Below are positions 1 to 60,341 of a stretch of DNA of 64,000 nt, one piece after another (position 1 is the first letter of the stretch; the number at the start of each line of letters is the position of its first letter). The notes under the pieces are model-generated. The model ran no database searches. It was given only the letters and a program-made list of their open reading frames with translations, and was not told where the DNA came from. The position numbers and the translations under genes were made by a program. The stretch is from Bradyrhizobium sp. (GTDB taxonomy: Bacteria > Pseudomonadota > Alphaproteobacteria > Rhizobiales > Xanthobacteraceae). Where the stretch lies: NCBI GenBank assembly GCA_028290305.1, contig JAQGKC010000242.1, forward strand, positions 1 to 64,000, read 5' to 3'.

Positions 1-268
1 TCTGTGCAGAACCCATCACCGCGACAACCATCGCTTCGGAGACGAGCAAGCTTGGTGGGCTAGTTCGTCGATCAACCCCGTGGAGGTCTCGCGGAAGCTC
101 TGGGTTTCAACGCGGCGTATCGAATGAGGACGACATGAATTTATTCCCCTTCCTTATGGGCCCCGTCCGTCAAATGCTGAAAGCGTACAATGGGAAGGTG
201 TGTGTGCTAGCGTGTAATGACGATTTAACGATTTGGGAGAAAATCAGATTCAAGACTAATTTTGGCGA

Positions 269-685
269 TCAGTCATGACTGTGACCGTTTCGCGCGGCGC
301 GAAATTCTCTGATCATCTTTGCACTCGGGCTTTCTTCGGGCCGTTTTCTTTGGAATTTTTCTTTATGAGCGAGCGTGACCTTTTTCGCTTCATTGGTCGC
401 CGCACGGCTGCGGTTGATCGCTTCATACCATTCTGCGAGTTCGTCAGGGAAGGCGGCGACGAGCTGTGTGGAGTGTCGGATCACTTCCTCCATGACCATC
501 ATCAAAATAATCATCGCCTCCTTGGTCTCAGCCTTTAATTCGGCGATCATTCCTTCGGTGATCTTCTCTATTTCTTCAGGTGCACCAAATTTCAGCGTTT
601 GGTCGTAGAAGCGACTCTTACCAATGATCGATGTTGAATAGGCGTCGAGAGTCTTTGTCGCCTCACGAAGATCTATCATTTGCAT
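269..685 (-). CDS. Hypothetical protein, 138 aa
   Basis: I do not recognise this family. The product is a soluble-looking, largely helical, charged protein with no cysteine, no signal peptide and no membrane segment. Its middle holds a Met/Ile-rich helix (about residues 57-70) and the C-terminal third is basic. The ATG at 685 is preceded by an AAGGG-type ribosome site at good spacing, which supports the start. It stands alone, with no close upstream or downstream partner on its strand. The frames on the opposite strand here are shorter and lack ribosome sites. Confidence 0.6.
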   Translation of the reverse strand: MQMIDLREATKTLDAYSTSIIGKSRFYDQTLKFGAPEEIEKITEGMIAELKAETKEAMIILMMVMEEVIRHSTQLVAAFPDELAEWYEAINRSRAATNEAKKVTLAHKEKFQRKRPEESPSAKMIREFRAARNGHSHD

Positions 686-1867: not shown

Positions 1868-2185
1868 TTTGGCAGAACGAACCCAATTGTCTAAAGACCT
1901 AAATTGAGCGATTTCGGTCGGTTGTGATTTAGTAGTGGTTGCGAGCTGTGAACGCAGGTCACGAAATGGTGTGGACTGAAGTCATAGAGTGACAATCGGC
2001 GATGTCCCGTTTAGCTCAAGAGCCATCCCGCTTCAGCCCGCTGTAGCTGGATGGCGATGCCACGGGATCGAACGCTCGTCCGTAATATGTCGCTGGCGGT
2101 TTAGCTGACGGGTTGAGGCACACATCGAGGGCAAATTCCCTGGACATCTGTTCTACGCCGGGCCGCGAAAGGCGCCTGCGAGATC
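1868..2185. other. Intergenic stretch, nothing recognised
   Basis: About 320 bases between two gene ends facing each other. I see no convincing coding frame, hairpin with T-tract, tRNA or repeat. The short frame at 2101-2304 on the minus strand is a shadow of the phosphoesterase gene end. Confidence 0.4.
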
Positions 2186-3163
2186 CTAGATAACCAAGGC
2201 TTGCGCAGCAGGCTCAATCCTCGTCTGCGTCGTCTGAGCAATGTGGATGCCGGAGATGCCGTGCATCCAGTCGCGCACGTCGACGAGGGGCACGATTGAG
2301 TCACCTTCGATCACGATGCAGGTCAGGCGGCCGGTCGCGAAGGCCCCGGTGTCAATATTAATCCGATTTGTTCGGATATCGACCGCCGGAACCGGGGTAT
2401 GTCCGTGCACGACAAATTTCTCGAACCTCTCTTCACAGGAGAGAAACTCCTCACGAATCCAAAGTAAATCTTCTTCGCTCTGCTTCCGAATGGGAACGCC
2501 GGGGCGAATACCGGCATGGACAAACAGAAAATCCCCGCAACTGAACGACAGATCAAGGGATTCGAGAAATTCCAGGTGCCGTTTGGGTATGGCCCTGGCC
2601 AGTTCTTCGGCCAGTTGCGTTTGTTCGCGGGCACCGGGATTGATCGATGGCTTGAGCCCGTAGGACACGAGAGTTTCGAGACCGCCGCATAGACGCCATT
2701 CATCCAGGATTGCCGGCTCGCTCAGAAAGCGATGAACAAAGGTCTCATGATTGCCTTTGAGAAAGATCGTCTCTTTTGTCCGCTCGCATCCCAGCAGAAG
2801 ATCCAGCACTTCTTTTGAGGCCGGTCCCCGGTCGATATAATCGCCAAGAAAAACCACGATCGGTCGAATGGAGGGATAGAGTAAGCAGTCCGCGTCGATT
2901 TGCTGAAGCAGGGCCTTCAGAAGATCGGCGCGGCCATGAATATCTCCGATCGCATACACCCGGAGCCCATCGGGTAATCTCGCCGCCGCTGGCTTGTTTT
3001 GCGATGACCGTGAATTCCACACTATGTCCGGCCTTGGTTTGGAAAAATGTATTGGGCGACGGAGGTTCTTATTTAAAATACCGCACTTTATTTGATATTG
3101 ATAGCTGCAGGATGATCTTGATTCGGAAGCCGGCTGCTTTGGCGTCGCCAATAAATAGTGCAT
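2186..3163 (-). CDS. PP1/ApaH-type metallophosphoesterase
   Basis: A calcineurin-like phosphoesterase related to bacterial serine/threonine phosphatases and diadenosine tetraphosphatase. The metal-binding blocks appear in order: GDIHGRADLL, then GDYIDRGP, then KGNHE, with later histidines (FVHAG, VVHGHTP) completing the dinuclear site. The catalytic core begins only at about residue 65. The 60-residue N-terminal stretch from the ATG at 3163 has no clear ribosome site and may be untranslated, so the true start could be an internal GTG/TTG near 3030. No signal peptide is visible, so a cytoplasmic enzyme is expected. The physiological substrate cannot be told from sequence. Confidence 0.88.
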   Translation of the reverse strand: MHYLLATPKQPASESRSSCSYQYQIKCGILNKNLRRPIHFSKPRPDIVWNSRSSQNKPAAARLPDGLRVYAIGDIHGRADLLKALLQQIDADCLLYPSIRPIVVFLGDYIDRGPASKEVLDLLLGCERTKETIFLKGNHETFVHRFLSEPAILDEWRLCGGLETLVSYGLKPSINPGAREQTQLAEELARAIPKRHLEFLESLDLSFSCGDFLFVHAGIRPGVPIRKQSEEDLLWIREEFLSCEERFEKFVVHGHTPVPAVDIRTNRINIDTGAFATGRLTCIVIEGDSIVPLVDVRDWMHGISGIHIAQTTQTRIEPAAQALVI

Positions 3164-3251
3164 TAAATATCGATTAAGTATTCGTCGTCAGTATTAATAC
3201 CGACGTTGGAGAAAGCAGTCTCCTGTTGGCGCTGGCAATATCCGGTGGGCG

Positions 3252-3965
3252 ATGCCGAATTCATCTGGTGCGCACGATCATAACTTCGGTGCAATCGAGG
3301 CTGCGGTCAAAGAAACCGCGCGGGGGCGGGCATTCCTGGCCGATTACGCCAGGAAGGTGCGTCAATCCGATACACTGACGTTGCTTGCGATGATCGGGCG
3401 CCTCGAGCGTTGGTCTCGGGAACAGGCTGTTCGTCTTGCAGAACTCGAGGGACGCGATCCGGCGTTTGGAGATCGGGCGCCCGAAGGTCATGCCAGTCTC
3501 GCTCTGGGCCACCGCCGCGAGCCAACCGAGCAGACGATCGGGCCTGGGGAAGCGTCGCTGCATGCAAATCATTTGGATGTACTGGCCGTAACGGTGTGCG
3601 ATCAGGATGCGGCTTCTGTCGACCGGACAAGTGACGACGGGATGGATGAGACAGCTAGCGTTCGTCAGAACCGCGAGGCAATGGATCGCATCCAACATCT
3701 TGCGAATGGGCTTCGCGATATTGACCGAAGGACCGCCGACTTGACCGGTCGCCGCCGCACGACCGGCCAAGGCACGGACGTCGGACCATCTGCACTTGTC
3801 GCCTCGGTCGACAATGGGATGGGGGCTATGATCTCGTATTCGGCTGCCCCTGAGGCGAGGGGGCGGTCATGGAACACCGCGGACAGAACGCATCCTTTGG
3901 AAGAGGATGTTTTGGACGGCATCGCCAAGGCGTTGGGAACGCGCCAAACAGTCGATGGCTGGTGA
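3252..3965 (+). CDS. Hypothetical protein with conserved N-terminal helical domain, 237 aa
   Basis: The first 60 residues (IEAAVKETARGRAFLADYARKVRQ and following, ending RLERWSREQ) match a helical segment I have seen at the N-terminus of many uncharacterised rhizobial proteins. The remaining 170 residues are low-complexity, charged and probably disordered, with no enzyme motif. There is no signal peptide or membrane helix. The ATG at 3252 follows a GGTGGG stretch that can act as a weak ribosome site. The gene stands alone on the plus strand. Function unknown; a regulatory or scaffolding role would be pure guesswork. Confidence 0.6.
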   Translation: MPNSSGAHDHNFGAIEAAVKETARGRAFLADYARKVRQSDTLTLLAMIGRLERWSREQAVRLAELEGRDPAFGDRAPEGHASLALGHRREPTEQTIGPGEASLHANHLDVLAVTVCDQDAASVDRTSDDGMDETASVRQNREAMDRIQHLANGLRDIDRRTADLTGRRRTTGQGTDVGPSALVASVDNGMGAMISYSAAPEARGRSWNTADRTHPLEEDVLDGIAKALGTRQTVDGW

Positions 3966-12825: not shown

Positions 12826-15800
12826 ATGGCTTTGGTAGGTACTGTGAAAACTTTCGCGGCGGCACCGAGCGGCAAGAGCGCCCCCGACTCCATCACCACC
12901 GAGAATGGCTCGTTTTTTGTCGAATACGGCAACGGCGCGGATTCGACCGGTGCAGGTGGTTCGAGCACGATCGTTCAGTACGACAAGGCAGGCCATGTCG
13001 AACACACCTACACGATCCCGGGTTCCGTCGATGGCCTGAAATTCAATCCGTACACCGGCCAGATCTGGGCGCTGCAGAATCAGGACGGCAACTCGACGCT
13101 GTCGCTGATCGATCCCGTGACCCACAAAGTGACGGGCCCGCTGAGTTTCGCCAATCCATCAGCCACAAGTGGCTACGACGATGTTGTCTTCAAAGGCGAC
13201 AAGGTGTTCTTGAGCTACACCAATCCGAACGGCGCCGGCGATCCGACGCTGGTGGAACTCGTCAACGGCGATCGGCCGAATGGTCTGCTACTAACGTCGA
13301 CGATCCTGGCCGATGGCGCGACCGGCTACGACACCGTGACCGGCAAGGTCGAAGTTGTGCCGCAAAGTGATCCCGACTCGTTGAAGCAGGCACCGAACGG
13401 CGACCTGCTCCTGACCAGCGGTGCCAATGGTACGATCATCGACGTGCAGCACCCGGGAATGGCCAATCAGGCCGTTTCCTTCACCACGATCAAGGGCGTG
13501 ACTGCAGGCAATGCCGGCCTCGACGATGTGATTAAGCCCGGCGCCACAGCTGGAACGTTCTACCTGACCGATACCGCGTCCAACAAGGTTTATTCGTTTC
13601 ATGCGACCGGCCTGAACACCAACGATTATTACGCGTCGGTTGGAAGCCTGAAGGCGTTCGGCCAAGTCGATCCGACCACGGGCGTCTTTACTCCGCTCGT
13701 CACCGCGGAGAACGCGGGCAATATCAATTTCGTCGCGCCGCATGGCGTGGTCTTCGTGCCCGATCACAACGCGCCGCCGATGGCGGAGGTCGACTCCATC
13801 AAGACATTCGCGAACGCTCCGAACGGCGTGAGCGGTTTGGATTCGGTCACGGTCGCCGGCGATTACGTGTTCGTTGAATACGGCAACAACGTCGACTCGA
13901 CAGGGGCCGTATCCGGCAAGAGCACGATCATTCAATACGACAAATCCGGAAACTTTGTGCACGCCTATGCGATCGAAGGCTCTGTTGACGGCCTGAAGTA
14001 CAATCCCGAGACCGGATTGGTCTGGGCGCTGCAGAACCAGGATGGCCGCTCGTCGCTGTCGCTGATCGATCCGGTCACCCAAAAGATCACGGCGCATTTT
14101 ACCTATGCCGACACATCGACCACGCGGGGTTACGACGATGTCGTGTTCGACGGCAAGAATGTGTTCCTGAGCTACACCAACCCGACCGGTAACGGCGACC
14201 CGACCATCGTGAAGCTGCTGAACGGACCGAATCCGAAGCCGGGCGAGACGCTGCAAACGACTCCCGTGCTGCTCGACGGCGCGATGGGCTATGACACCGT
14301 GACCGGCAAGATGGAACTGGTCCCGCAGACCGACCCGGACTCGCTCAAGATCGCCGCCAATGGCGACCTGATCTTCTCCAGCGGCGCTGATGGCACGATT
14401 ATCGACATCCAGAACCCCGGCACCTCCAAGCAGGCGATCGCCTTCACCCCGATCCAGGGTATTCCGGCGGGCTCCGTGGGCAATGCCGGGCTCGACGACG
14501 TGATCAAGCCAAACGCTACCTCCGGCACGTTCCTGATCTCGGATGCGAAGGACGGCCATGTGCTGTCAGTCCATGTCACAGGTCTCGACCCGAACGCCTA
14601 CTATGCCTCTGTCGGCGCTTTGAATGCCTTCGGCCAGGTCGACGAGAGTACTGGCGTGTTTACCGCGCTGGTTTCGGCGAACAACGCTCCGGGCTTCACG
14701 TTTGGCTCGCCACATGGCGTCACCTTCATTCCGGACAAGAACTCGGCCCCTTCGCCGCAGATCGGCGCGATCAAAACGTTCCAGGCTCCCATCGACGGAT
14801 CTAACTCGCCTGACTCCGTCACGACCGCCAACGGCTCGACCTTCGTCGAATATGGCAACGGCGCGGATTCGACCGGAGCAGGTGGTTCGAGCACGATCGT
14901 TCAGTACGACAAGGCCGGCAGGATCGAATATTCCTATTCGCTGTCGGGATCGGTCGACGGATTGAAGTTCAACCCCGTCACCGGAGAAATCTGGGCGCTG
15001 CAAAATCAGGATGGCAATCCTACCCTGACGCTGATCGATCCGAAGACGCACACGATCTCGGCGCCGCTCAGCTTCGCCAATTCGTCGGCTACCCGCGGCT
15101 ATGATGACGTCGTGTTCGAGGGCAACAAGGTGTTCCTGAGCTACACCAACCCGGTCAATGCCGGGGACCCGACGCTGGTGCAACTGGTTCAGGGCGATCA
15201 CCCGACCGGGCTGCTCACTACCAAGACCGTGCTGAGCTTCGGCGCCACCGGCCGCGACACCGTGACTGGCCAAATCGAACTGGTGCCGCAAACCGATCCC
15301 GATTCCTTGAAGCAGGCGCCGAACGGCGACCTGCTTCTGACCAGTGGTAACGACGGAACGATCATCGACATCAGCAAGGCCAGCACCGCGCAACAGTCGG
15401 TTTCGTTCACGAACGTGGCGGGGGTCACCAGCGGCAACGCTAGCCTCGACGATGTGATCAAGCCGAATAATGCCACGTCGGGCACGTTTACGCTGACGGA
15501 TACCGCAACCAACAAGGTTTACTCGTTTCACGCGACGGGCCTCAACACCAACGACTACTATGCCTCGGTCGGAAGCCTGAAAGCGTTTGGCCAGGTCGAT
15601 CCGACAACCGGCGCATTCACGCCGCTGTTGTCGGCCGACAATGCGCCGGGCTTCAACTTCAGCTCACCGCACGGCATCAGCTTCGCGGCCGATCCGGCGC
15701 CGGCGACCGCAGGAAAGGACGACCATAAGGCGACGCATGATCTGCTGGCGTCATACGCAAACCAGGCGTCGGTGCTCGGCAACTTCATTGCTTCGTCCTT

Positions 15801-15891
15801 CACGACGGGACAAGGCCAGATGGGCGGCAATGTCATAGCCGATGCTCATACCCAGCTCCCGGTTCTGGCCATTCCGCACAACCACGGTTGA
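12826..15891 (+). CDS. Large secreted protein with three tandem propeller-like modules
   Basis: A 1021-residue protein with three repeats of about 320 residues (about 4-318, 319-644, 645-950) and a 70-residue tail. Each module runs through the same blade-like phrases: FVEYGN, STIVQYDK, SVDGLKFNP, IWALQNQDG, VFLSYTNP, DPDSLK, GNAGLDDVIKP and NDYYASVG in modules 1 and 3. This looks like beta-propellers; no catalytic motif is seen. There is no N-terminal signal peptide and no RTX nonapeptide. With HlyB- and HlyD-type genes directly downstream, it is almost certainly the type I substrate, with its export signal in the last 60 residues. Its role could be in adhesion, the biofilm matrix or ligand binding. 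The start is fixed by AAGGAGG. Confidence 0.88.
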   Translation: MALVGTVKTFAAAPSGKSAPDSITTENGSFFVEYGNGADSTGAGGSSTIVQYDKAGHVEHTYTIPGSVDGLKFNPYTGQIWALQNQDGNSTLSLIDPVTHKVTGPLSFANPSATSGYDDVVFKGDKVFLSYTNPNGAGDPTLVELVNGDRPNGLLLTSTILADGATGYDTVTGKVEVVPQSDPDSLKQAPNGDLLLTSGANGTIIDVQHPGMANQAVSFTTIKGVTAGNAGLDDVIKPGATAGTFYLTDTASNKVYSFHATGLNTNDYYASVGSLKAFGQVDPTTGVFTPLVTAENAGNINFVAPHGVVFVPDHNAPPMAEVDSIKTFANAPNGVSGLDSVTVAGDYVFVEYGNNVDSTGAVSGKSTIIQYDKSGNFVHAYAIEGSVDGLKYNPETGLVWALQNQDGRSSLSLIDPVTQKITAHFTYADTSTTRGYDDVVFDGKNVFLSYTNPTGNGDPTIVKLLNGPNPKPGETLQTTPVLLDGAMGYDTVTGKMELVPQTDPDSLKIAANGDLIFSSGADGTIIDIQNPGTSKQAIAFTPIQGIPAGSVGNAGLDDVIKPNATSGTFLISDAKDGHVLSVHVTGLDPNAYYASVGALNAFGQVDESTGVFTALVSANNAPGFTFGSPHGVTFIPDKNSAPSPQIGAIKTFQAPIDGSNSPDSVTTANGSTFVEYGNGADSTGAGGSSTIVQYDKAGRIEYSYSLSGSVDGLKFNPVTGEIWALQNQDGNPTLTLIDPKTHTISAPLSFANSSATRGYDDVVFEGNKVFLSYTNPVNAGDPTLVQLVQGDHPTGLLTTKTVLSFGATGRDTVTGQIELVPQTDPDSLKQAPNGDLLLTSGNDGTIIDISKASTAQQSVSFTNVAGVTSGNASLDDVIKPNNATSGTFTLTDTATNKVYSFHATGLNTNDYYASVGSLKAFGQVDPTTGAFTPLLSADNAPGFNFSSPHGISFAADPAPATAGKDDHKATHDLLASYANQASVLGNFIASSFTTGQGQMGGNVIADAHTQLPVLAIPHNHG

Positions 15892-15929: not shown

Positions 15930-15993
15930 TAATCTTCGAACTTCGGCAGGATTGGGAACGGGGTCCTGCGGGCGGCCGACAGCCGAGGAAACA

Positions 15994-18111
15994 ATGCATG
16001 ATATAAAGACAAAGCCGGCCGATACCGGCCTTGCCTCGCTGGTGATGCTGATGCGCTTTCAGGGTGTCGCGGCGGAACCGGATCAAATCCAGCACCGCTT
16101 CGGCGGTGTCTCGATCGGCCTCGCCGAAATGCTTCGCTGCGCGAAGGATTTCGGATTGAAGGCGCGTGTCGTCAAAACCGGATGGGCACGCTTGGCGAGC
16201 AGTCCGCTGCCCGCGATCGGCTGCCTTGGCAGCGGCGGCTTTCTCCTCATCGGCAAGGCGTCCGACGATCAGGTCCTGGTGTCCGACCCCTCCGTAGGAC
16301 GACCGGAAATGCTGACCCGCGCCGCGTTCGAAGAGCGCTGGGATGGCCGCATCGTCTTCATGGCACGGCGCGCGAATTTAAGTGATCTCACCAACCGCTT
16401 CGGCATCTCATGGTTCGTGACCGCGATCCATAAATATCGTCGTCTGATCGGCGAAGTGTTTTTGTTCTCGTTCTTCCTGCAGCTGTTTGCGCTGATCTCG
16501 CCGCTGTTCTTCCAGGTCGTCATCGACAAATCGCTGGTGCATCACAGCGGGAGCACACTCGACGTTCTGATCATCGGCCTCGTCGCGATATCCGTTTTCG
16601 AGACAATTCTCGGAACACTGCGGACATATCTGTTCGCCCATACGACCAACCGCATCGATGTCGAATTGGGGGCGCGCCTGTTCCGGCACCTGTTGGCGCT
16701 GCCGTCTGCCTATTTCCAGGCGCGGCGCGTCGGCGACTCCGTCGCTCGCGTTCGCGAGCTGGAGAATATCCGCAATTTCCTGACGGGGTCGGCGCTGACG
16801 CTCGTGATCGACGCGTTCTTCACTGTCGTGTTTCTGGCGGTGATGTTCTTGTATTCGCCGTTTCTAACCTGGATCGTGATGGCAAGCCTGCCGTTTTACA
16901 TCGCGATATCCGCCGGCTTGACTCCGCTGTTCCGCACCCGCCTCGATGAGAAGTTCAAACGCGGGGCGGAGAACCAGGCATTCCTGGTCGAGAGTGTGGC
17001 CGGCATCGAGACGCTGAAGGTGATGGCCGTCGAACCGCAAGTTCAGCGCCGCTGGGAAGAGCAACTCGCCGGTTACGTCGGTGCGAGCTTTCGCGTTCTC
17101 AACCTCGGCAACATCGGCAGTCAGGCTGTCCAGTTCATCAACAAGATGGTGATGGCGGCCATTCTGTTCTTCGGCGCCAAACTCGTTATCCAAGGCTCTC
17201 TGAGCGTCGGCGAGTTCGTCGCCTTCAATATGCTGGCGGGTCGCGTCAGTGCGCCGGTGCTGCGGCTGGCTGGACTTTGGCAGGACTTTCATCAGGCTCG
17301 CCTGTCGATCGCGCGATTGGGCGACATTCTCAATACACCAGTCGAACCGTCCTTTAATGCGACCAAAACGGCACTTCCCGTGCTGATCGGTGACATCAGA
17401 TTTGAGCATGTCACGTTCCGTTACCGCATTGACGGGCCGGAAGTTCTCAAGGACGTTAATCTGGATATCGCTGCGGGTCAGGTTGTTGGGATCGTCGGCT
17501 CCTCCGGCTCAGGCAAGAGCACATTTGCCAAGCTCATCGAGCGGCTTTATGTGCCGGAGAGCGGCCGCGTCTTCGTCGACGGGGTCGACCTTGCCCAGGT
17601 TGATAGCTCCTGGCTGCGCCGGCAGATCGGTGTCGTGATGCAGGACAATGTCCTTTTCAACGCGACGGTGCGCGACAATATTGCCCTCGCCAATCCGGGA
17701 ATGCCAAGCGAGGACGTCGTCGCCGCCGCGCGTCTCGCCGGCGCTCACGAGTTTATCCTGGAATTGCCTGATGGTTACGATACGATGATCGGTGAACGCG
17801 GAAGCACACTTTCGGGCGGTCAGCGTCAGCGCATCGCGATCGCACGGGCGCTGGTCACGAACCCGCGCATCCTGATATTTGACGAAGCGACCAGCGCGCT
17901 TGACTACGAAAGCGAGAGAATCATCCACGCCAACATGCGGGAGATTGTGAAAGGCCGTACCGTCTTCATCATCGCGCATCGACTGATGGCTGTGCGGGTC
18001 GCCGACCGGATTCTGACAATTGAACGCGGACGTGTCGCGGAAGACGGTACGCATGAGGACCTTCTGCTTCGGGGCGGTCGCTACGCCGCTCTTCATGCCA
18101 TGCAGTCCTGA
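15994..18111 (+). CDS. Type I secretion ABC transporter (HlyB/LapB class)
   Basis: A 705-residue inner-membrane exporter. Residues 1-135 form a C39-peptidase-like domain; the usual catalytic Cys region reads ADTGLASLVML, so the protease is inactive and acts as a docking domain, as in HlyB. Membrane helices span about 150-430. The ATPase domain has Walker A GSSGSGKST (about 502-510), signature LSGGQRQR and Walker B ILIFDEATSALD. The ATG at 15994 follows AGGAAAC and is preferred to 15952, which starts without a ribosome site. It lies between the putative substrate and the adaptor gene. The outer-membrane TolC partner is not in the window. Confidence 0.95.
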   Translation: MHDIKTKPADTGLASLVMLMRFQGVAAEPDQIQHRFGGVSIGLAEMLRCAKDFGLKARVVKTGWARLASSPLPAIGCLGSGGFLLIGKASDDQVLVSDPSVGRPEMLTRAAFEERWDGRIVFMARRANLSDLTNRFGISWFVTAIHKYRRLIGEVFLFSFFLQLFALISPLFFQVVIDKSLVHHSGSTLDVLIIGLVAISVFETILGTLRTYLFAHTTNRIDVELGARLFRHLLALPSAYFQARRVGDSVARVRELENIRNFLTGSALTLVIDAFFTVVFLAVMFLYSPFLTWIVMASLPFYIAISAGLTPLFRTRLDEKFKRGAENQAFLVESVAGIETLKVMAVEPQVQRRWEEQLAGYVGASFRVLNLGNIGSQAVQFINKMVMAAILFFGAKLVIQGSLSVGEFVAFNMLAGRVSAPVLRLAGLWQDFHQARLSIARLGDILNTPVEPSFNATKTALPVLIGDIRFEHVTFRYRIDGPEVLKDVNLDIAAGQVVGIVGSSGSGKSTFAKLIERLYVPESGRVFVDGVDLAQVDSSWLRRQIGVVMQDNVLFNATVRDNIALANPGMPSEDVVAAARLAGAHEFILELPDGYDTMIGERGSTLSGGQRQRIAIARALVTNPRILIFDEATSALDYESERIIHANMREIVKGRTVFIIAHRLMAVRVADRILTIERGRVAEDGTHEDLLLRGGRYAALHAMQS

Positions 18112-18131: not shown

Positions 18132-19544
18132 GTGCGCCAGATGACCACAGCCGTCGTCCCCATCCGAACCCAATCCATTCGCAGCGCCGAGCGCGAATTT
18201 CTGCCGGCCGCCCTCGAAATCGTCGAAACACCGCCGTCGCCGATCGGCCGTCTCGGGGCCTACTGCCTCGTTGCTGTCTTTACGCTCTCGATGGTATGGG
18301 CCTGGTTCGGTCATGTCGACATCGTCGCTGTTTCCAAAGGCAAGATCATCCCGACCGGCCATACAAAAATCGTGCAGCCGTTCGAGATCGGTGTCGTTCG
18401 CGCGATCCTGGTCCGGGATGGACAAAAGGTGAAGGTCGGCGACGCTCTGATCGAGCTGGATCCGACGATGAACCAGGCGGATCTCGACCACCAGCGGAGC
18501 GATCTGATGGCGGCGAAGATCGATATTGCGAGACTGACGGCGGCCCTTGAGAGCGAGAGCGATCCCGATGCGCATTTTGTGCCGCCGGCGGGCGCCAGCC
18601 CCGAGCAGGCAAGGATGGGTGAGCAATTCCTGATCGGCCAGATGTCGCAGTATCGCAGCAAGCTCGCAAGCCTCGCCGGCGATGAAGCGCAGAAGCGGGC
18701 GGAGCTGGAAAGTCAGAAGGTTTCGATTGGCAAGATCCAAACGTTGCTGCCGCTGATGGAAGAACGCACCCAGATGCGCAAGACGCTTTTCGATCATCAG
18801 ACCGGTACAAAGCTCGCTTATCTCGAAAATCTGCAGGAATTGCTGTCGAACCAGAAGGACCTCGAGGTGCAGACAAGCCGTCTCAAGGAAGCCGATGCCG
18901 CCGTTGTCGCGTCGAAGGCCAAGCTGGAAGAAACACGGGCCGAATTCCACCGGGGAATCCTGAGCGACCTGGCCGAAGCGACGCGCAAGGCCAACGGTCT
19001 GGCGCAGGATGTTGCCAAGTCAGAACAGCGGACAAAGTATCAGGCCTTGACTGCGCCCATCGACGGCACGGTTCAGCAATTAGCGATCCATTCGGTCGGC
19101 GGCGTCGTCACCCCGGCTCAAACCCTTTTGACGATCGTCCCCGCCGACAGCCAAATGGAGATTGAAGCCACGGTCGACAACCAGGACATCGGTTTCGTGC
19201 ATCCCGGTCAGGACGCCGAAATCAAAGTGGATACCTTCAGTTTCACCCGCTACGGTTTGCTGCACGGCAAGGTCGTTACTCTGTCGCAGGATGCGATTCC
19301 GCCTGACAGTGCCGGCAAATCAAACCCGTCAAAACAGAGTACCAGTGACATCGGCGCGTCGGAACCGGCCTACGCAGCTCGCGTGTCGCTCGATCAAACG
19401 CAGATGAAGGTCGATGACAAGCTGCTCAATCTTTCGCCCGGCATGGCTGTCACCGTCGAGATCAAGACCGGCACGCGGCAGATCATCGATTATCTGCTTT
19501 CGCCCATATTGCGCCATCGCCAAGAGAGTCTGCGCGAGCGTTGA
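18132..19544 (+). CDS. HlyD-family periplasmic adaptor of type I secretion
   Basis: A 470-residue membrane-fusion protein. A cytoplasmic N-terminus is followed by one membrane helix (about residues 40-60), the first lipoyl half (VSKGKIIPTGHTKIVQPFE), a long coiled coil (about 110-310), the second lipoyl half (ALTAPIDGTVQQLAIHSVGG) and a C-terminal beta-barrel region ending MAVTVEIKTGTRQIIDYLLSP, the typical HlyD ending. It bridges the ABC exporter to an outer-membrane channel. It lies 20 nt after the exporter stop, in one operon. GTG 18132 and ATG 18141 are both possible starts, neither with a strong ribosome site. Confidence 0.93.
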   Translation: MRQMTTAVVPIRTQSIRSAEREFLPAALEIVETPPSPIGRLGAYCLVAVFTLSMVWAWFGHVDIVAVSKGKIIPTGHTKIVQPFEIGVVRAILVRDGQKVKVGDALIELDPTMNQADLDHQRSDLMAAKIDIARLTAALESESDPDAHFVPPAGASPEQARMGEQFLIGQMSQYRSKLASLAGDEAQKRAELESQKVSIGKIQTLLPLMEERTQMRKTLFDHQTGTKLAYLENLQELLSNQKDLEVQTSRLKEADAAVVASKAKLEETRAEFHRGILSDLAEATRKANGLAQDVAKSEQRTKYQALTAPIDGTVQQLAIHSVGGVVTPAQTLLTIVPADSQMEIEATVDNQDIGFVHPGQDAEIKVDTFSFTRYGLLHGKVVTLSQDAIPPDSAGKSNPSKQSTSDIGASEPAYAARVSLDQTQMKVDDKLLNLSPGMAVTVEIKTGTRQIIDYLLSPILRHRQESLRER

Positions 19545-52023: not shown

Positions 52024-52503
52024 CTAGATCAGGAAGGGCGTGCTCTCGAGAACCTCGCCGTTCCTCAAGAGATTGACCTTTTTACGCCGGATCCGCCAGT
52101 TGGCTTCACTGCGGTCGAGCGTGAACTCGCAACGCGCCGAATGGATCGTTTGGCGTTTCCGCGCCAATTCCACCAGCAGCATCATGCAACTTACCTCGAG
52201 GGTGTGATGTTCATCGTCCGATGGACCTAGTTCAACATTCGATATCAAGCGATGCACGCGGGACGCTGGATCCTGTGCATATGCGAATCCCGATCTTAGC
52301 CGCTTGATCCGCGTCGCCATCGCCGCCTTGTCATCATGGATGATCGAGACATGGCGGCTCGGGTCGATGTCGTCTCGGCCGGCGGGAACCCAGTAGAGCG
52401 CGTCTTCGGTGAAGAGGTCCATCCATTCCTCGAATTGTGCGGTATCGAGCAGCCGGGCCTCCCGGTAAAGAAAGCTCTCTACTTCGGATCTTTGAACGGT
52501 CAT
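52024..52503 (-). CDS. Aromatic-ring-hydroxylating dioxygenase beta subunit
   Basis: A 159-residue small subunit of the ring-hydroxylating dioxygenase family (NTF2-like cone fold). It begins VESFLYREARLLDTAQFEEWMDLFTEDALYWVP, a highly typical beta-subunit start, followed by DPSRHVSIIHDDKAAM and a C-terminal beta-sheet with the RRKKVNLLRNGEV phrase. It is structural and lacks cofactors. It lies three bases after the alpha gene, in the same operon. No ferredoxin or reductase gene is adjacent, so electrons must come from elsewhere. Confidence 0.93.
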   Translation of the reverse strand: MTVQRSEVESFLYREARLLDTAQFEEWMDLFTEDALYWVPAGRDDIDPSRHVSIIHDDKAAMATRIKRLRSGFAYAQDPASRVHRLISNVELGPSDDEHHTLEVSCMMLLVELARKRQTIHSARCEFTLDRSEANWRIRRKKVNLLRNGEVLESTPFLI

Positions 52504-52506
52504 GCC

Positions 52507-53679
52507 TCACTCCGCAGCCATAGCTGGCGATGTTGGACCCATCATCAGCCGTTTCCAATTTTGATACATGCCGCGGTGTTGAGTTTCGTCGGACATCGCG
52601 CCGGTCATGTAACCGTTCCGCATCTCCTCGCGATCGAGCCCGCGGGCAAAAACCACCCAATCTACCGCGCCACTTTGCAGCCCTTCCTGAGTTCTCTCGA
52701 AGATCTCGAGATCATCGGTGAAGAACGTACCGGCGGCTCCGAACTCAAATTCCTGATCGCGCATCCTGCGGAGGTTGACGTCTTCAGCAACATTCTGCAG
52801 GCGCACGGCATTCGTATAAACTTCCGTCCGATCGACTGCGATCGGCCTGACCGTGCGAATCTGGCTTCGCAACACGATCAGGTTCGGAAAAATAACCAGG
52901 TTGAACCCTCCGGACAGGCTCGCATCGACCGGCATCGGTCCCCAGTCGGTGTGATCCGTGACGCCGTGACCATCCATGGCGACGACGCTGCCGCGGCCTT
53001 GTCGATATATCTGCATCGCTTCAGGCGTGACGGCGCTGAGATGAAGCGCCCCGACGTGATACGGGTCAACGCCGTTCTCCAACTGATACTTCCAGTTGCC
53101 GTTGTATCCGCACTTTTGAGTGCCTTCGAACAGGTCAATCTTGCCGGTCGGAGAAACCGCGACATATGCGTCCAGGAATTTTGTGATTCCGCCCAGATGC
53201 TCTTCAAGAGAGGGTCCGTGTTCGCTCATGCATCCAAAGATAAAACCTTGATACTCGGCGACGCGAGGTACCTTGGTGAGCCCTAGCTCGGATTGATTGA
53301 ACGATTTTCCGTAGCCCTGCGGCATGGGCACGCCGATCAGATTCCCTGAATTATCATACGTCCATGAATGGTAAGGGCACCTGAAGTGCTTGCTGTTGCC
53401 GTACTCGTGCTGGCACACGATGGGGCCGCGGTGGCGGCAGCGATTGATCAGGGCAGTGACACTACCGTCCGCAAGCCTGGCGACGATAACGGGATGCTTG
53501 CCGATATAGGTGGTCTTGTAGTCGCCTTCCTCAGAAATCTCGCACGCATGTGCAAGAAACACCCAGGTCTTGTTGAAGATCAGATCCATTTCCATGTCGA
53601 ATATTTGGCGGTCGGTATAGATCGAGCGGTGCACTGAATCCTTTCGAATCAAAGCCTCGATGTCGCTATAGTCCAGCAT
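52507..53679 (-). CDS. Aromatic-ring-hydroxylating dioxygenase alpha subunit
   Basis: A 390-residue Rieske oxygenase. The Rieske site is complete (CRHRG and, 18 residues on, CPYH), as is the mononuclear iron site (ENGVDPYHVGALH). It dihydroxylates or demethylates an aromatic or related substrate with O2 and electrons from a missing reductase. It overlaps the PrpD-family gene upstream by one base (TAATG) and is tightly coupled to its beta subunit. Length is slightly short for the naphthalene-type alpha (about 450), closer to benzoate/anthranilate-type enzymes. Confidence 0.94.
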   Translation of the reverse strand: MLDYSDIEALIRKDSVHRSIYTDRQIFDMEMDLIFNKTWVFLAHACEISEEGDYKTTYIGKHPVIVARLADGSVTALINRCRHRGPIVCQHEYGNSKHFRCPYHSWTYDNSGNLIGVPMPQGYGKSFNQSELGLTKVPRVAEYQGFIFGCMSEHGPSLEEHLGGITKFLDAYVAVSPTGKIDLFEGTQKCGYNGNWKYQLENGVDPYHVGALHLSAVTPEAMQIYRQGRGSVVAMDGHGVTDHTDWGPMPVDASLSGGFNLVIFPNLIVLRSQIRTVRPIAVDRTEVYTNAVRLQNVAEDVNLRRMRDQEFEFGAAGTFFTDDLEIFERTQEGLQSGAVDWVVFARGLDREEMRNGYMTGAMSDETQHRGMYQNWKRLMMGPTSPAMAAE

Positions 53680-56713: not shown

Positions 56714-57352
56714 TCAGACAACGCCCGCCAGGTTCGGCATGATGCCCGGCATCACTATAAATCCATTGAGACGCTTCACCCGGTCCAGCCATCGCCATAT
56801 GGCGGGATAGGCATCAAGGGAAATTTCTCCATCCGGTGCCAGAATGACGGGCGGGAAAACCGCGACATCTGCAATCGTCGGATGGTTGCCGACGAGCCAG
56901 AGGCGACCGAGCAATTCCCCTTCAGCCAGGTGATCTTCAACGATTGAAAGCGATTTGTGGGCATCTGCAATCTCCTCGGGAGAAATAATCCCGGCGCTGG
57001 TGATCGCATCCATTCGAATCTGCGAAATCCGATCAAGCTCCGCGCAGGAAAAGCCCAGCCACATCATCACCTGGGCGTGCATTGCCGCGTCGGCTGGAAG
57101 CCATTTTCGTTCGGGATCAAAACGCAGCGCGAGATAGGTCAGGATCGCGATCGGGTCTGATAAAATCAACCCGTCATCCTCAAGCACGGGAATGCGGCCA
57201 CGTGGATTGAGGCTCAGAAATCGCGCGGTCTGGTTCTCGCGTCCTGGATGGACGTTGATCTTCGCGGGTTCGAATTCACGCCCGAACAACGCAAGCATGA
57301 GGCGGACTTTGTAGCAATCTGCCGAGAGAATATAATCGTGCAGCTTGATCAT
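56714..57352 (-). CDS. Glutathione S-transferase family protein
   Basis: A 212-residue GST. The N-terminal thioredoxin-like domain (residues 1-78) has MIKLHDYILSADCYKVRLMLAL and the glutathione-binding NPRGRIPVLEDDGLILSDPIAILTYLA region with cis-Pro. The helical C-terminal domain follows. A Ser at about residue 10 is the likely catalytic residue, as in beta or theta-type classes. Such enzymes in degradative operons can isomerise maleyl compounds or open ether and halogen bonds. It is 34 nt downstream of the Rieske-less oxygenase gene, in the same operon. Confidence 0.9.
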   Translation of the reverse strand: MIKLHDYILSADCYKVRLMLALFGREFEPAKINVHPGRENQTARFLSLNPRGRIPVLEDDGLILSDPIAILTYLALRFDPERKWLPADAAMHAQVMMWLGFSCAELDRISQIRMDAITSAGIISPEEIADAHKSLSIVEDHLAEGELLGRLWLVGNHPTIADVAVFPPVILAPDGEISLDAYPAIWRWLDRVKRLNGFIVMPGIMPNLAGVV

Positions 57353-57386: not shown

Positions 57387-58259
57387 TCAAGCTGTCGTCC
57401 GATCTACGCCGAATTCAAGGCCCGAGCGATCGAGCCACCTGCGATAGGCGATGGAGCTTGCGTCGGAGATCGTCGGGATTTCGCGGCGAGGATTAATGGG
57501 CAGTTTCTTTGGAACCTGATGGATCAGGATAGACCGGTCCTGCGCAAATATCTCATGGTAGAAGTGGAGGATGTGAGTTTGGCTATTGCGCTCATCGTAC
57601 ACCAGAGCGAACGAGTGAACCGTGCAGCGTTCCTCATCGTGAGGCTGGACGAATAGACCGATCAGATCCTTCTGCCCCTGACGAACAAGGCTGTCTTTGT
57701 AAATAATCGAGATGAATGGCGAGGGAATTCGGTAATCGTAGTAGACGGTACTGCTCAGTCCCGCCGCTGCAGACGCTTTTGGCTGAAGAAAACTGCAGCC
57801 GGTCGCCCAAAGCTCGGTGTTTTCCTCGCGAAATTCGACCGAATATCGCGGCACTTCAGCGGAGTCGTACCCTCCAAGCGTTCCGGTATGCACGAATGAA
57901 AAGTGCGCCAAATCAAAAAAGTTTTCTATGACGCGTTGTCCGGATGTCGGAACGCCGATCCGGCCGCGATGTATGAACTTCCGTTCGTCGCCTTCAAACT
58001 CCGGTATATTCACGATCCCCCGGACGGGCTCTCCGAGCGTTACCCAGAGAAAACCGTATTTTACCGACGTTTCGAGCGTCCGCTGCTGTTCGCCGTTTTC
58101 CGGCTGCGTGACGCACTGAAACGATCCCGACCAATCACGATGAACGGCAATATCCTGGCCCAACAGGCGTGTAACTTCCGTTTGCCCTTTTGCAATTTCG
58201 CCGACAAATGCCACCACGTACCAATCGGCCAAAGCTACGGCATCTTTCGTTAAGCTCAT
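57387..58259 (-). CDS. Oxygenase half with mononuclear-iron site but no Rieske cluster
   Basis: A 290-residue protein matching the catalytic part of VanA/phthalate-type Rieske oxygenases. The iron motif ENFFDLAHFSFVH (about residue 110-122) is intact. The Rieske domain framework is present (DWYVVAFVGEI, LLGQDIAVHRD, then YGFLWVTLGEP), but the metal-binding loops C-x-H and C-x-x-H are absent, apparently by an internal deletion. It therefore cannot bind a 2Fe-2S cluster itself. Its start overlaps the Rieske-only partner by four bases (ATGA). The pair probably function together, as NdmC and the extra-Rieske reductase NdmD do in caffeine degradation. Confidence 0.85.
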   Translation of the reverse strand: MSLTKDAVALADWYVVAFVGEIAKGQTEVTRLLGQDIAVHRDWSGSFQCVTQPENGEQQRTLETSVKYGFLWVTLGEPVRGIVNIPEFEGDERKFIHRGRIGVPTSGQRVIENFFDLAHFSFVHTGTLGGYDSAEVPRYSVEFREENTELWATGCSFLQPKASAAAGLSSTVYYDYRIPSPFISIIYKDSLVRQGQKDLIGLFVQPHDEERCTVHSFALVYDERNSQTHILHFYHEIFAQDRSILIHQVPKKLPINPRREIPTISDASSIAYRRWLDRSGLEFGVDRTTA

Positions 58260-59155
58260 GAGATGGCTCCCTTGACTTCATCGCCGAATGTCTGGTCGGG
58301 CGTAGCTTGCAGAAACTGTTCGTAAATGGATCGGAGATGCGGTTCGCGGGCAAGTTGCTCCGCCCCCATTCGGAAACGAACCAGAGCGCGATTCATCTCG
58401 ACCGGAGGCCCATCCGAAGAAAGGTGGATGACACATCTCCCCTCGGACGCCGGCTGGAAAAGCAACTGATATGCCAGGGCTGGCGAGCCGCCCCGGCTCA
58501 ATCGGCAAAACAACCTCCCCGGATAGGTCCACGAGGCCTCGAAATTCAGTCTGGAAGGCGTATCGATCCTCGCTTCGACAGACGCGGTCGCAGTCTGTCT
58601 GGTCCATTTCAGAACATCAGGGGGAAATAGAAAATTCTCGGTCGCTTCGGGATCCAGAGGGCACGCCAGCAGCGCGGCTATCGCCATATCGGTATCGATC
58701 GGCAGATGCAGGCTACGAACAGGCCGTAACGATTCGATCTTTTCTGGCCGGTCTGACGCAGGCTCGCCGAGGCAAACCCAAATATAGCCTTCCATTTCTA
58801 CCGAAGGATAGATGCGAGCGCGTGCCGCGCGCGAAGGCACGTTTCCGGGATGAGCCGGAATTTTCTGGCAATGGCCGTCCGAACCGAACGTCCAGCCGTG
58901 ATAGGCACAGATCAGGTTATCATTCTGCACAGCCCCATACGATAACCGCATACCTCGGTGCGGACAGCGGTCGCTCCAAGCGCCCACCACGCCGCTTTCG
59001 GAACGCCAGACCACGAGATGCTCGCCGTGCAGAATCAACGGCATATTCCGGCCACGCTTAAGATCCGACATTGCTGCAACCGGATACCAGGACCAGGGAT
59101 TTCGGGCGCCGAGCCCCGGGGTTGCTCGCTCTGATTGGGTCAATTGAAGCGTCAT
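58256..59155 (-). CDS. Rieske 2Fe-2S protein lacking the oxygenase iron site
   Basis: A 299-residue protein with a complete Rieske domain: WSWYPVAAMSDL start, CPHRG, then CAYHGW. The C-terminal part (about residues 130-299) has some oxygenase-like architecture, but I see no E/N-x-x-D-x-x-H-x4-H motif. It can therefore hold the 2Fe-2S cluster but probably no mononuclear iron. It is first in the operon with the complementary Rieske-less protein and a GST. The likely job is electron donor to the partner's iron site. No reductase gene is adjacent. Confidence 0.87.
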   Translation of the reverse strand: MTLQLTQSERATPGLGARNPWSWYPVAAMSDLKRGRNMPLILHGEHLVVWRSESGVVGAWSDRCPHRGMRLSYGAVQNDNLICAYHGWTFGSDGHCQKIPAHPGNVPSRAARARIYPSVEMEGYIWVCLGEPASDRPEKIESLRPVRSLHLPIDTDMAIAALLACPLDPEATENFLFPPDVLKWTRQTATASVEARIDTPSRLNFEASWTYPGRLFCRLSRGGSPALAYQLLFQPASEGRCVIHLSSDGPPVEMNRALVRFRMGAEQLAREPHLRSIYEQFLQATPDQTFGDEVKGAIS

Positions 59156-59295: not shown

Positions 59296-59311
59296 TGGCA
59301 TAACCTTTGCT
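59296..59311 (+). promoter_or_regulatory. Sigma-54-like promoter before the LysR gene
   Basis: TGGCATAACCTTTGCT has the GG and GC doublets ten bases apart and matches the RpoN consensus except at the C and G after TGGCA. Transcription would begin near 59322, about 30 nt before the ATG at 59352. Confidence 0.5.
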
Positions 59312-59351
59312 TGATCTGCTGCGAACTTTGTTTTTGAGAAGGGAGTTCGTC

Positions 59352-60341
59352 ATGGCAAATATGGTGGCTTCATTTGGAGAAACCTTTTCATCGGATTCAG
59401 CAGGTTCCTCCAGTTCAGCCGCGGCACTGGCGCTGCCCCGGATCACAATCCGTCACTTGGTGTATTTTGCAGCAGCGGCGAATAATGAAAGCGCCCTGAG
59501 GGCTGCAGAAGAGCTGAATGTATCTCCGCCCGCGATATCTGGAGCCATATCTGGGCTCGAGCGGATATTGGGAGAGCGCCTGTTTGTCCGCCGGCACGCC
59601 CGCGGACTTACCTTGACCGACGCGGGTCATCATCTTCTTCTCGAGGCGCGCGACATCATCGGCCGCGTCAGGGAAATAGAATCCATTCGGTCTGGCCGTG
59701 CCCGAGGCCTGCGCAACCGGATTTCATTTGGCTGTCTGGGGGACATCGCCTCAAATGTAGTGCCGCCGCTGGTCCGAAGTTTCAAGGAGCGATTTCCCGA
59801 GGTCGAAGTGCGCTGGCAGACCGATTATCACGCTCCCCTCATGCAAAAACTTGAGGAGGGTACGCTTGACGTCATATTCGTGCTCGATTTCGAGATCTCA
59901 CCCAACCTTCATTCGACATTACTTCAATCAACGCCGGCTCAGTGCGTTCTCCCTGAAGATCACGTCCTTGCAAGCGGTGGGCCGATCTCGCTGAAAGCGC
60001 TCGCCGAAGAACCGTTCATCATGTTGGATGTGCCTCGAACCAGAGACTACTTTCTTTCTGTTTTCGGCGATCTGGGACTGCAGCCGAACATCGCGCTCCG
60101 AGCGCAAACGGCCGAGATGGTCCGCAGCCTGGTGGCCAATGGCTTCGGATACTCGTTGCTTAATTTCTGCATGCCCGATCGCAGAAATATCGTATATCGC
60201 CCGCTTGAAGGTCATACGCGGCCATCGCATCTTGTTGCCGTACGGCAATACAGGCGCCGCCCGTCCAAGATCAGCGACGATTTCGTGGAGCAGGCCGTCA
60301 AGATCGTTCGGCAATCCAACCTAAGCGGATTGACGCAATAG
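59352..60341 (+). CDS. LysR-family transcriptional regulator
   Basis: A 329-residue regulator. A 30-residue Ser/Ala-rich extension precedes the winged helix (ITIRHLVYFAAAANNESALRAAEELNVSPPAISGAISGLERILGERLFVR), followed by the LysR effector domain with its two lobes (ISFGCLGDIASNVVPPL; EPFIMLDVPRTRDYFLSVF). ATG 59352 has AAGGGAG upstream; the frame from 59307 begins inside the sigma-54-like promoter. It is divergent from the split Rieske operon, the arrangement in which LysR proteins usually activate the opposite gene, and convergent with the importer. Confidence 0.93.
   Translation: MANMVASFGETFSSDSAGSSSSAAALALPRITIRHLVYFAAAANNESALRAAEELNVSPPAISGAISGLERILGERLFVRRHARGLTLTDAGHHLLLEARDIIGRVREIESIRSGRARGLRNRISFGCLGDIASNVVPPLVRSFKERFPEVEVRWQTDYHAPLMQKLEEGTLDVIFVLDFEISPNLHSTLLQSTPAQCVLPEDHVLASGGPISLKALAEEPFIMLDVPRTRDYFLSVFGDLGLQPNIALRAQTAEMVRSLVANGFGYSLLNFCMPDRRNIVYRPLEGHTRPSHLVAVRQYRRRPSKISDDFVEQAVKIVRQSNLSGLTQ

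Follow-up and report, generated by a model that had tools for sequence, protein, structure and literature searches.

How can a Rieske oxygenase work when its two metal sites are encoded by two separate genes? Electron transfer between subunits is a defining step of these enzymes, and it is this step that a 64,000-nucleotide stretch of Bradyrhizobium sp. DNA (assembly GCA_028290305.1, contig JAQGKC010000242.1, positions 1 to 64,000; hereafter the window) appears to divide between proteins. Two genes on its reverse strand overlap by the letters ATGA: the upstream one encodes B (P0002), which has a Rieske motif, and the downstream one encodes A (P0001), which has the motif of a mononuclear iron site. 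A gene for a glutathione S-transferase (GST)-like protein follows (Table 1). The three most likely represent a real, functional split oxygenase, and we put the probability that they form one split Rieske oxygenase of the NdmC/NdmD/NdmE class at about 80%. A first-pass annotation, made from the sequence of the window, had already proposed that A and B are complementary halves of one enzyme and had given the overlap its correct coordinates and strand. Its two-gene unit holds as far as the overlapping halves are concerned; the third gene, encoding the GST-like protein, was overlooked.

A pattern search of A finds the iron-site motif ENFFDLAHFSFVH and no C.H..C..H. The protein matches Pfam VanA_C (E 1.1e-18), whereas its Rieske match reaches just 0.012, under the cut-off. 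E112, N113, D116, H119 and H124 are each present in 112/112 aligned rows and D241 in 111/112 (112 of the 121 rows formed by A and its 120 listed matches, after removal of 9 short or odd ones). By analogy with the family, D241 is probably an iron ligand, and D116 stands where other Rieske oxygenases have their bridging carboxylate. When the A and B families are compared with hhalign (prob 97.0, E 1e-10), the flanking strands align around a single clean gap, and the ligand-loop stretch of B falls between A residues 53 and 54. A comparison with SxtT aligns A 54–285 with SxtT 99–333 and, as a weak piece of 6.6 bits, A 4–42 with SxtT 3–41. The proposal that one gene kept the iron triad and lost its Rieske loops by a neat internal deletion sparing the nearby strands is therefore borne out.

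B carries the complementary set of features. It contains CPHRG and CAYHGW and matches Pfam Rieske (E 5.1e-23), and a pattern search of B for the D..H....H triad found none, in agreement with the earlier description. All four Rieske ligands are present in 69/69 aligned rows (69 of 87, once 3 rows lacking the N-terminus and 15 rows of full-length or other oxygenase chains were removed). The structure model of B (predicted local distance difference test 88.7, predicted template modelling score 0.85) aligns with whole Rieske oxygenase chains, and the predicted fold looks like that of a complete oxygenase subunit whose catalytic domain is empty. Neither protein has both metal sites in one chain, as a canonical alpha subunit does, and A, with no Rieske ligands, does not have the cluster of its own that the oxygenase of a three-component system carries and that a soluble Rieske ferredoxin supplies with electrons.

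The same division is found throughout the relatives of both proteins. Searching protein sequences turned up 228 relatives of A (120 of them listed) and 86 of B, with full-length or other oxygenases in the last 15 places; among A and the 120 relatives listed for it, the Rieske motif occurs in 0/121. At the level of genome contigs, at least 549 A relatives were detected, and the best 80 loci were kept. In the loci fetched, the Rieske motif is present in A at 0 of 96 places (92 distinct sequences), and D..H....H is kept in 92/92 distinct sequences. The triad is present in B at 0 of 84 places (81 distinct), and all Rieske ligands are found by pattern in 79/81 distinct sequences, the remaining two being degenerate second copies (B') in loci L007 and L013. 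Loci were counted from profile matches above 150 bits for A and above 120 bits for B. Against the A profile, no chain with a Rieske motif exceeds 75 bits, and the A proteins counted begin at 167; with the B profile, full-length enzymes score up to 113, and six triad-less chains at 93–116 bits were excluded. Relatives 97% and 87% identical have the same layout as the window.

Locus L007 has a second module adjoining its main one (1994–3345), as do L008–L011, L013 and L018. It comprises a full-length Rieske oxygenase, an A-like chain, a short B-like chain, a GST and a reductase. In L007 and L013 the second Rieske cysteine of the B-like chain is a glycine, which suggests that the cluster has been lost from this chain too.

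The two halves also occur together. B lies in the same fetched stretch in 58 of the 81 loci that bear A (the window and 80 fetched loci); the other 23 lie in 22 genomes, every one of which (22/22) has a strong B match elsewhere, with best E values per genome of 1.0e-82 to 6.6e-67. We also scanned 337 genomes sampled from the class to which G016 belongs (presumably Alphaproteobacteria, as G016 is the source of a Bradyrhizobium locus), scoring at most 7 and at most 8 candidates per genome. A matched in 9 and B in 11, full-length enzymes still included. Once one genome in which both matches fell in the same 427-residue full-length enzyme and two B matches in frames of full-length size (394 and 407 residues) were set aside, both halves were present in 8 genomes, A alone in 0, B alone in 0 and neither in 329. 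Over 36 dereplicated loci the distances among A proteins correlate with those among their partner B proteins (r 0.83, above all 5000 permutations). The complementary split of A and B is not due to chance. The first-pass annotation had suggested looking for the pair elsewhere and had named halves occurring alone as the result that would speak against it; the pair recurs, lone halves were sought in these genomes and not found, and complementary halves of one oxygenase are the best reading of the locus.

The GST gene belongs to the B/A unit, as NdmE does in its own system. It lies within 2.5 kb of B in 69/81 distinct cases, and in the remaining 12 the fetched stretch ends 1.5 kb or less downstream of B; it remains beside B also in loci whose A is divergent or lies kilobases off. 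A VanB-type reductase accompanies A–B–GST groups as a stand-alone gene in 13 loci and fused behind the B-like part in 3 (L059–L061).

Such a division is known from caffeine breakdown: in passages of PMC4408171, NdmC, NdmD and NdmE appear as the caffeine N7-demethylase, a split Rieske oxygenase with a GST, and as one large complex. The layout in Pseudomonas putida CBB5 is that of the window, B, A and GST corresponding to NdmD, NdmC and NdmE. Common to both are homologous proteins, a mononuclear-iron oxygenase chain with the triad and no Rieske cluster, a Rieske domain on another polypeptide and a GST-like partner in the cluster. The abstract of the original paper reportedly states that split clusters occur more broadly. 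Common descent is indicated by trees: NdmC-like proteins branch within the A family, and an NdmD-like protein, represented by its N-terminal part, branches within the B family. These proteins, from L059 and L072, were named by layout and by kin on P. putida and Paraburkholderia caffeinilytica plasmids, not by comparison with an NdmC reference. L059 (Stutzerimonas) encodes A, a 585-residue protein that combines Rieske, NAD-binding and Fer2 domains, and a GST; its A is 83.8% identical to an A that has a Rieske protein and a GST as neighbours on a plasmid of P. putida, and 57.5% identical to the A of a GST/formaldehyde-gene cluster in P. caffeinilytica. The A of the window is 41.5% identical to its nearest P. 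putida plasmid relative. The caffeine enzyme is thus not the partial precedent for which it had initially been taken but a member of the same family.

The window differs from this precedent in that its Rieske half stands alone with a full-size, iron-less catalytic-type domain, whereas that of NdmD is fused to a reductase. In B (299 residues) the Rieske family alone is matched, and the system is therefore not strictly NdmCDE but a split relative of it. On a Sinorhizobium meliloti megaplasmid (L113, 7989–9800), two neighbouring A-like genes, each with the annotation oxygenase alpha subunit, are followed by an NdmD-sized gene, named Rieske protein, and a GST, with xanthine dehydrogenase a few genes off; the published Sinorhizobium relatives may hence be of the fused form. 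SxtT and GxtA of the saxitoxin pathway (PDB 6wn3 and 6wnc), the closest solved chains to A and B by sequence and to A by fold, have both metal sites in one chain where A and B have one each, and NdmA and NdmB are likewise complete enzymes with both sites. The split itself is of a known kind, forming a small and little-studied class. What looks new is the lone Rieske half and its predicted whole-subunit fold with an emptied catalytic domain; a search of open-licence literature, a scope that leaves the original NdmCDE paper outside, found no Rieske half that stands alone and has a catalytic domain without iron.

How the halves might cooperate can be framed by comparison with the carnitine oxygenase CntA, in which E205 occurs in the spacing D/E..H....H. 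According to PMC7948474, the cluster and iron of CntA are separated by 44 Å when they belong to one chain and by 12.2 Å when they face each other across the subunit interface, E205 forms the bridge, and E205 mutants are inactive. CntA is a homotrimer with both sites in each chain. In the window, electrons from NADH would pass through a separate VanB-type reductase, encoded outside it, to the cluster of B. B would dock on A so that its cluster took the position that the neighbouring subunit's cluster has in ordinary Rieske oxygenases. Via D116, the electron would reach the mononuclear iron of A, which would activate O2 and then hydroxylate or demethylate the substrate. The complete conservation of D116 in the cluster-less A is what would be expected if the cluster of another protein docked there, and B is the only conserved candidate. 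By analogy with NdmE, the GST-like protein may hold A and B together rather than act as a catalyst. Should the assembly be a head-to-tail alternation of A and B, the ordinary three-subunit ring would be impossible and another arrangement would be needed, perhaps one set by the GST.

Several results weigh against a split oxygenase of this class. No reductase was found among the open reading frames of the window with phmmer at 1e-8. Sequence-level proof of a catalytic domain in the C-terminal half of B failed: hhalign matched it to A over 19 columns with prob 31.8 and to full-length enzymes with prob 0.5, and the identity of this domain is therefore drawn from predicted folds. The B tree has 130 columns, and its key branches, at 92 and 83, are below the 95 level. 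Correlated A and B distances are also expected from joint inheritance of linked genes, and in many Rhizobium-type loci A does not adjoin B, being divergent from it or kilobases away.

That spacing, found in a number of loci, would suit a B that acts as a soluble Rieske ferredoxin, a diffusible carrier visiting A instead of a lasting subunit of a hetero-oligomer. Three-component Rieske systems employ such ferredoxins, and many B relatives are short (rows of 193–245 residues). However, since A lacks a cluster, the final donor to its iron must be B, which sets B apart from a ferredoxin; a whole-subunit fold is predicted for the B of the window; and the GST adjoins B, its caffeine counterpart being part of the one large complex that passages of PMC4408171 describe. 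We consider a diffusible carrier improbable. Less probable still is that the main partner of A or B is the ordinary full-length oxygenase encoded nearby. Its alpha/beta pair shares the neighbourhood, and an alpha/beta pair occupies the same place in L002; but the alpha has its own Rieske and catalytic domains, and many B–A–GST loci have no full-length enzyme in the fetched stretch. Decay into two broken oxygenase genes, or an assembly fault, would account for the one cofactor site missing from each half and deserves next to no credence, given the ligands conserved in hundreds of relatives, the shared layout of the two close relatives and the co-occurrence of A and B; chance pairing or decay is ruled out on these grounds.

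If A, B and the GST-like protein do form a split oxygenase, A and B are best explained as paralogous descendants of a single full-length oxygenase subunit, each having lost what the other kept. A retained the Rieske shell minus its ligands, as its sequence and predicted fold show, and B the catalytic shell minus its iron, as suggested mainly by the predicted fold. NdmD-like proteins appear to have arisen later, by fusion of a B-type half of the lone kind to a reductase. Whether the whole course was duplication and complementary loss, with long B near the ancestral state, most B trimmed later and NdmD a trimmed B joined to a reductase, we regard as evenly balanced. The odds are likewise even that, as this origin implies, a subunit with dead Rieske domain and live iron site must pair with one whose oxygenase domain is dead and whose cluster is live.

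Table 1 Positions of the split oxygenase genes, their key sites and neighbouring genes in the window
Feature	Position	Strand	Evidence
B (P0002), 299 residues, Rieske-bearing half	58256–59155	-	Pfam Rieske E 5.1e-23; predicted fold
Predicted iron-less catalytic-type domain of B	residues about 144–284	-	Predicted model, matches whole Rieske oxygenase chains
Rieske ligand stretch of B, C64/H66 to C83/H86	58898–58966	-	Four ligands kept in 69/69 rows
A (P0001), 290 residues, catalytic half without Rieske ligand loops	57387–58259	-	VanA_C match
ATGA overlap, B stop and A start	58256–58259	-	Sequence
Deletion place in A, codon 53, just before residue 54	58101–58103	-	Profile comparison; SxtT alignment
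E112–H124 of A, ENFFDLAHFSFVH, with iron His 119 and 124 and D116	57888–57926	-	Alignment conservation
D241 of A, probable third (carboxylate) iron ligand	57537–57539	-	111/112 rows
GST-like protein, 212 residues, NdmE counterpart	56714–57352	-	Pfam GST_N 1.5e-12, GST_C_2 2e-09
Divergent LysR-type regulator, probable regulator of the B/A/GST unit	59307–60341	+	LysR-family matches; context
Ordinary full-length oxygenase alpha	52507–53679	-	Own Rieske and catalytic domains
Ordinary oxygenase beta	52024–52503	-	Adjoins alpha

The wider surroundings may bear on the substrate. Between 50255 and 63210 the window encodes an amidohydrolase, the Rieske dioxygenase beta and alpha subunits, an MmgE/PrpD protein, the GST, A, B, the LysR regulator and an ATP-binding cassette (ABC) transporter with an NMT1-type binding protein. 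These kinds of gene recur in L002, from Bradyrhizobium sp. dw_78, and the shared neighbourhood suggests a catabolic cluster for some compound; a protein similar to the LysR neighbour is found at the same position in L001 and L002. Rhizobiales loci have guanine deaminase and BMP-family genes near A, and in Sinorhizobium (L113) xanthine dehydrogenase lies near an A-like pair. The guanine deaminase of L028 (8227–9603; linked cluster in 17 loci) scores 409.8, above its NCBIfam cut-off of 375.4. Below their cut-offs are an adenine-deaminase-like piece (154.9 versus 472.5) and a BMP-family transport protein (44 loci; 77.7 versus 400), both near A relatives. The neighbour clusters around A include some wrong-frame open reading frames, and the purine genes come from relatives rather than from the window. 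This context suggests a link of the wider A family to purines; N-demethylation or hydroxylation of an N-heterocycle would be our guess at the reaction.

At some distance from these genes, the forward strand encodes a 1021-residue protein (12826–15891) whose sequence is visibly repeated when read by eye. The two frames that follow (15952–18111 and 18132–19544, +) we take to be a peptidase-type ABC exporter and a membrane-fusion protein, and the repeat protein is perhaps secreted by this exporter of its own.

Inter-subunit electron transfer has been hard to dissect because every subunit of an ordinary Rieske oxygenase holds both metal sites. With one site per protein, each could be loaded, mutated and titrated separately, and donor and acceptor could be mixed at will. 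The pair would also account for the origin of the odd caffeine enzyme NdmCDE, and it would give a function to database entries now named 'aromatic ring-hydroxylating dioxygenase subunit alpha' or 'Rieske protein'.
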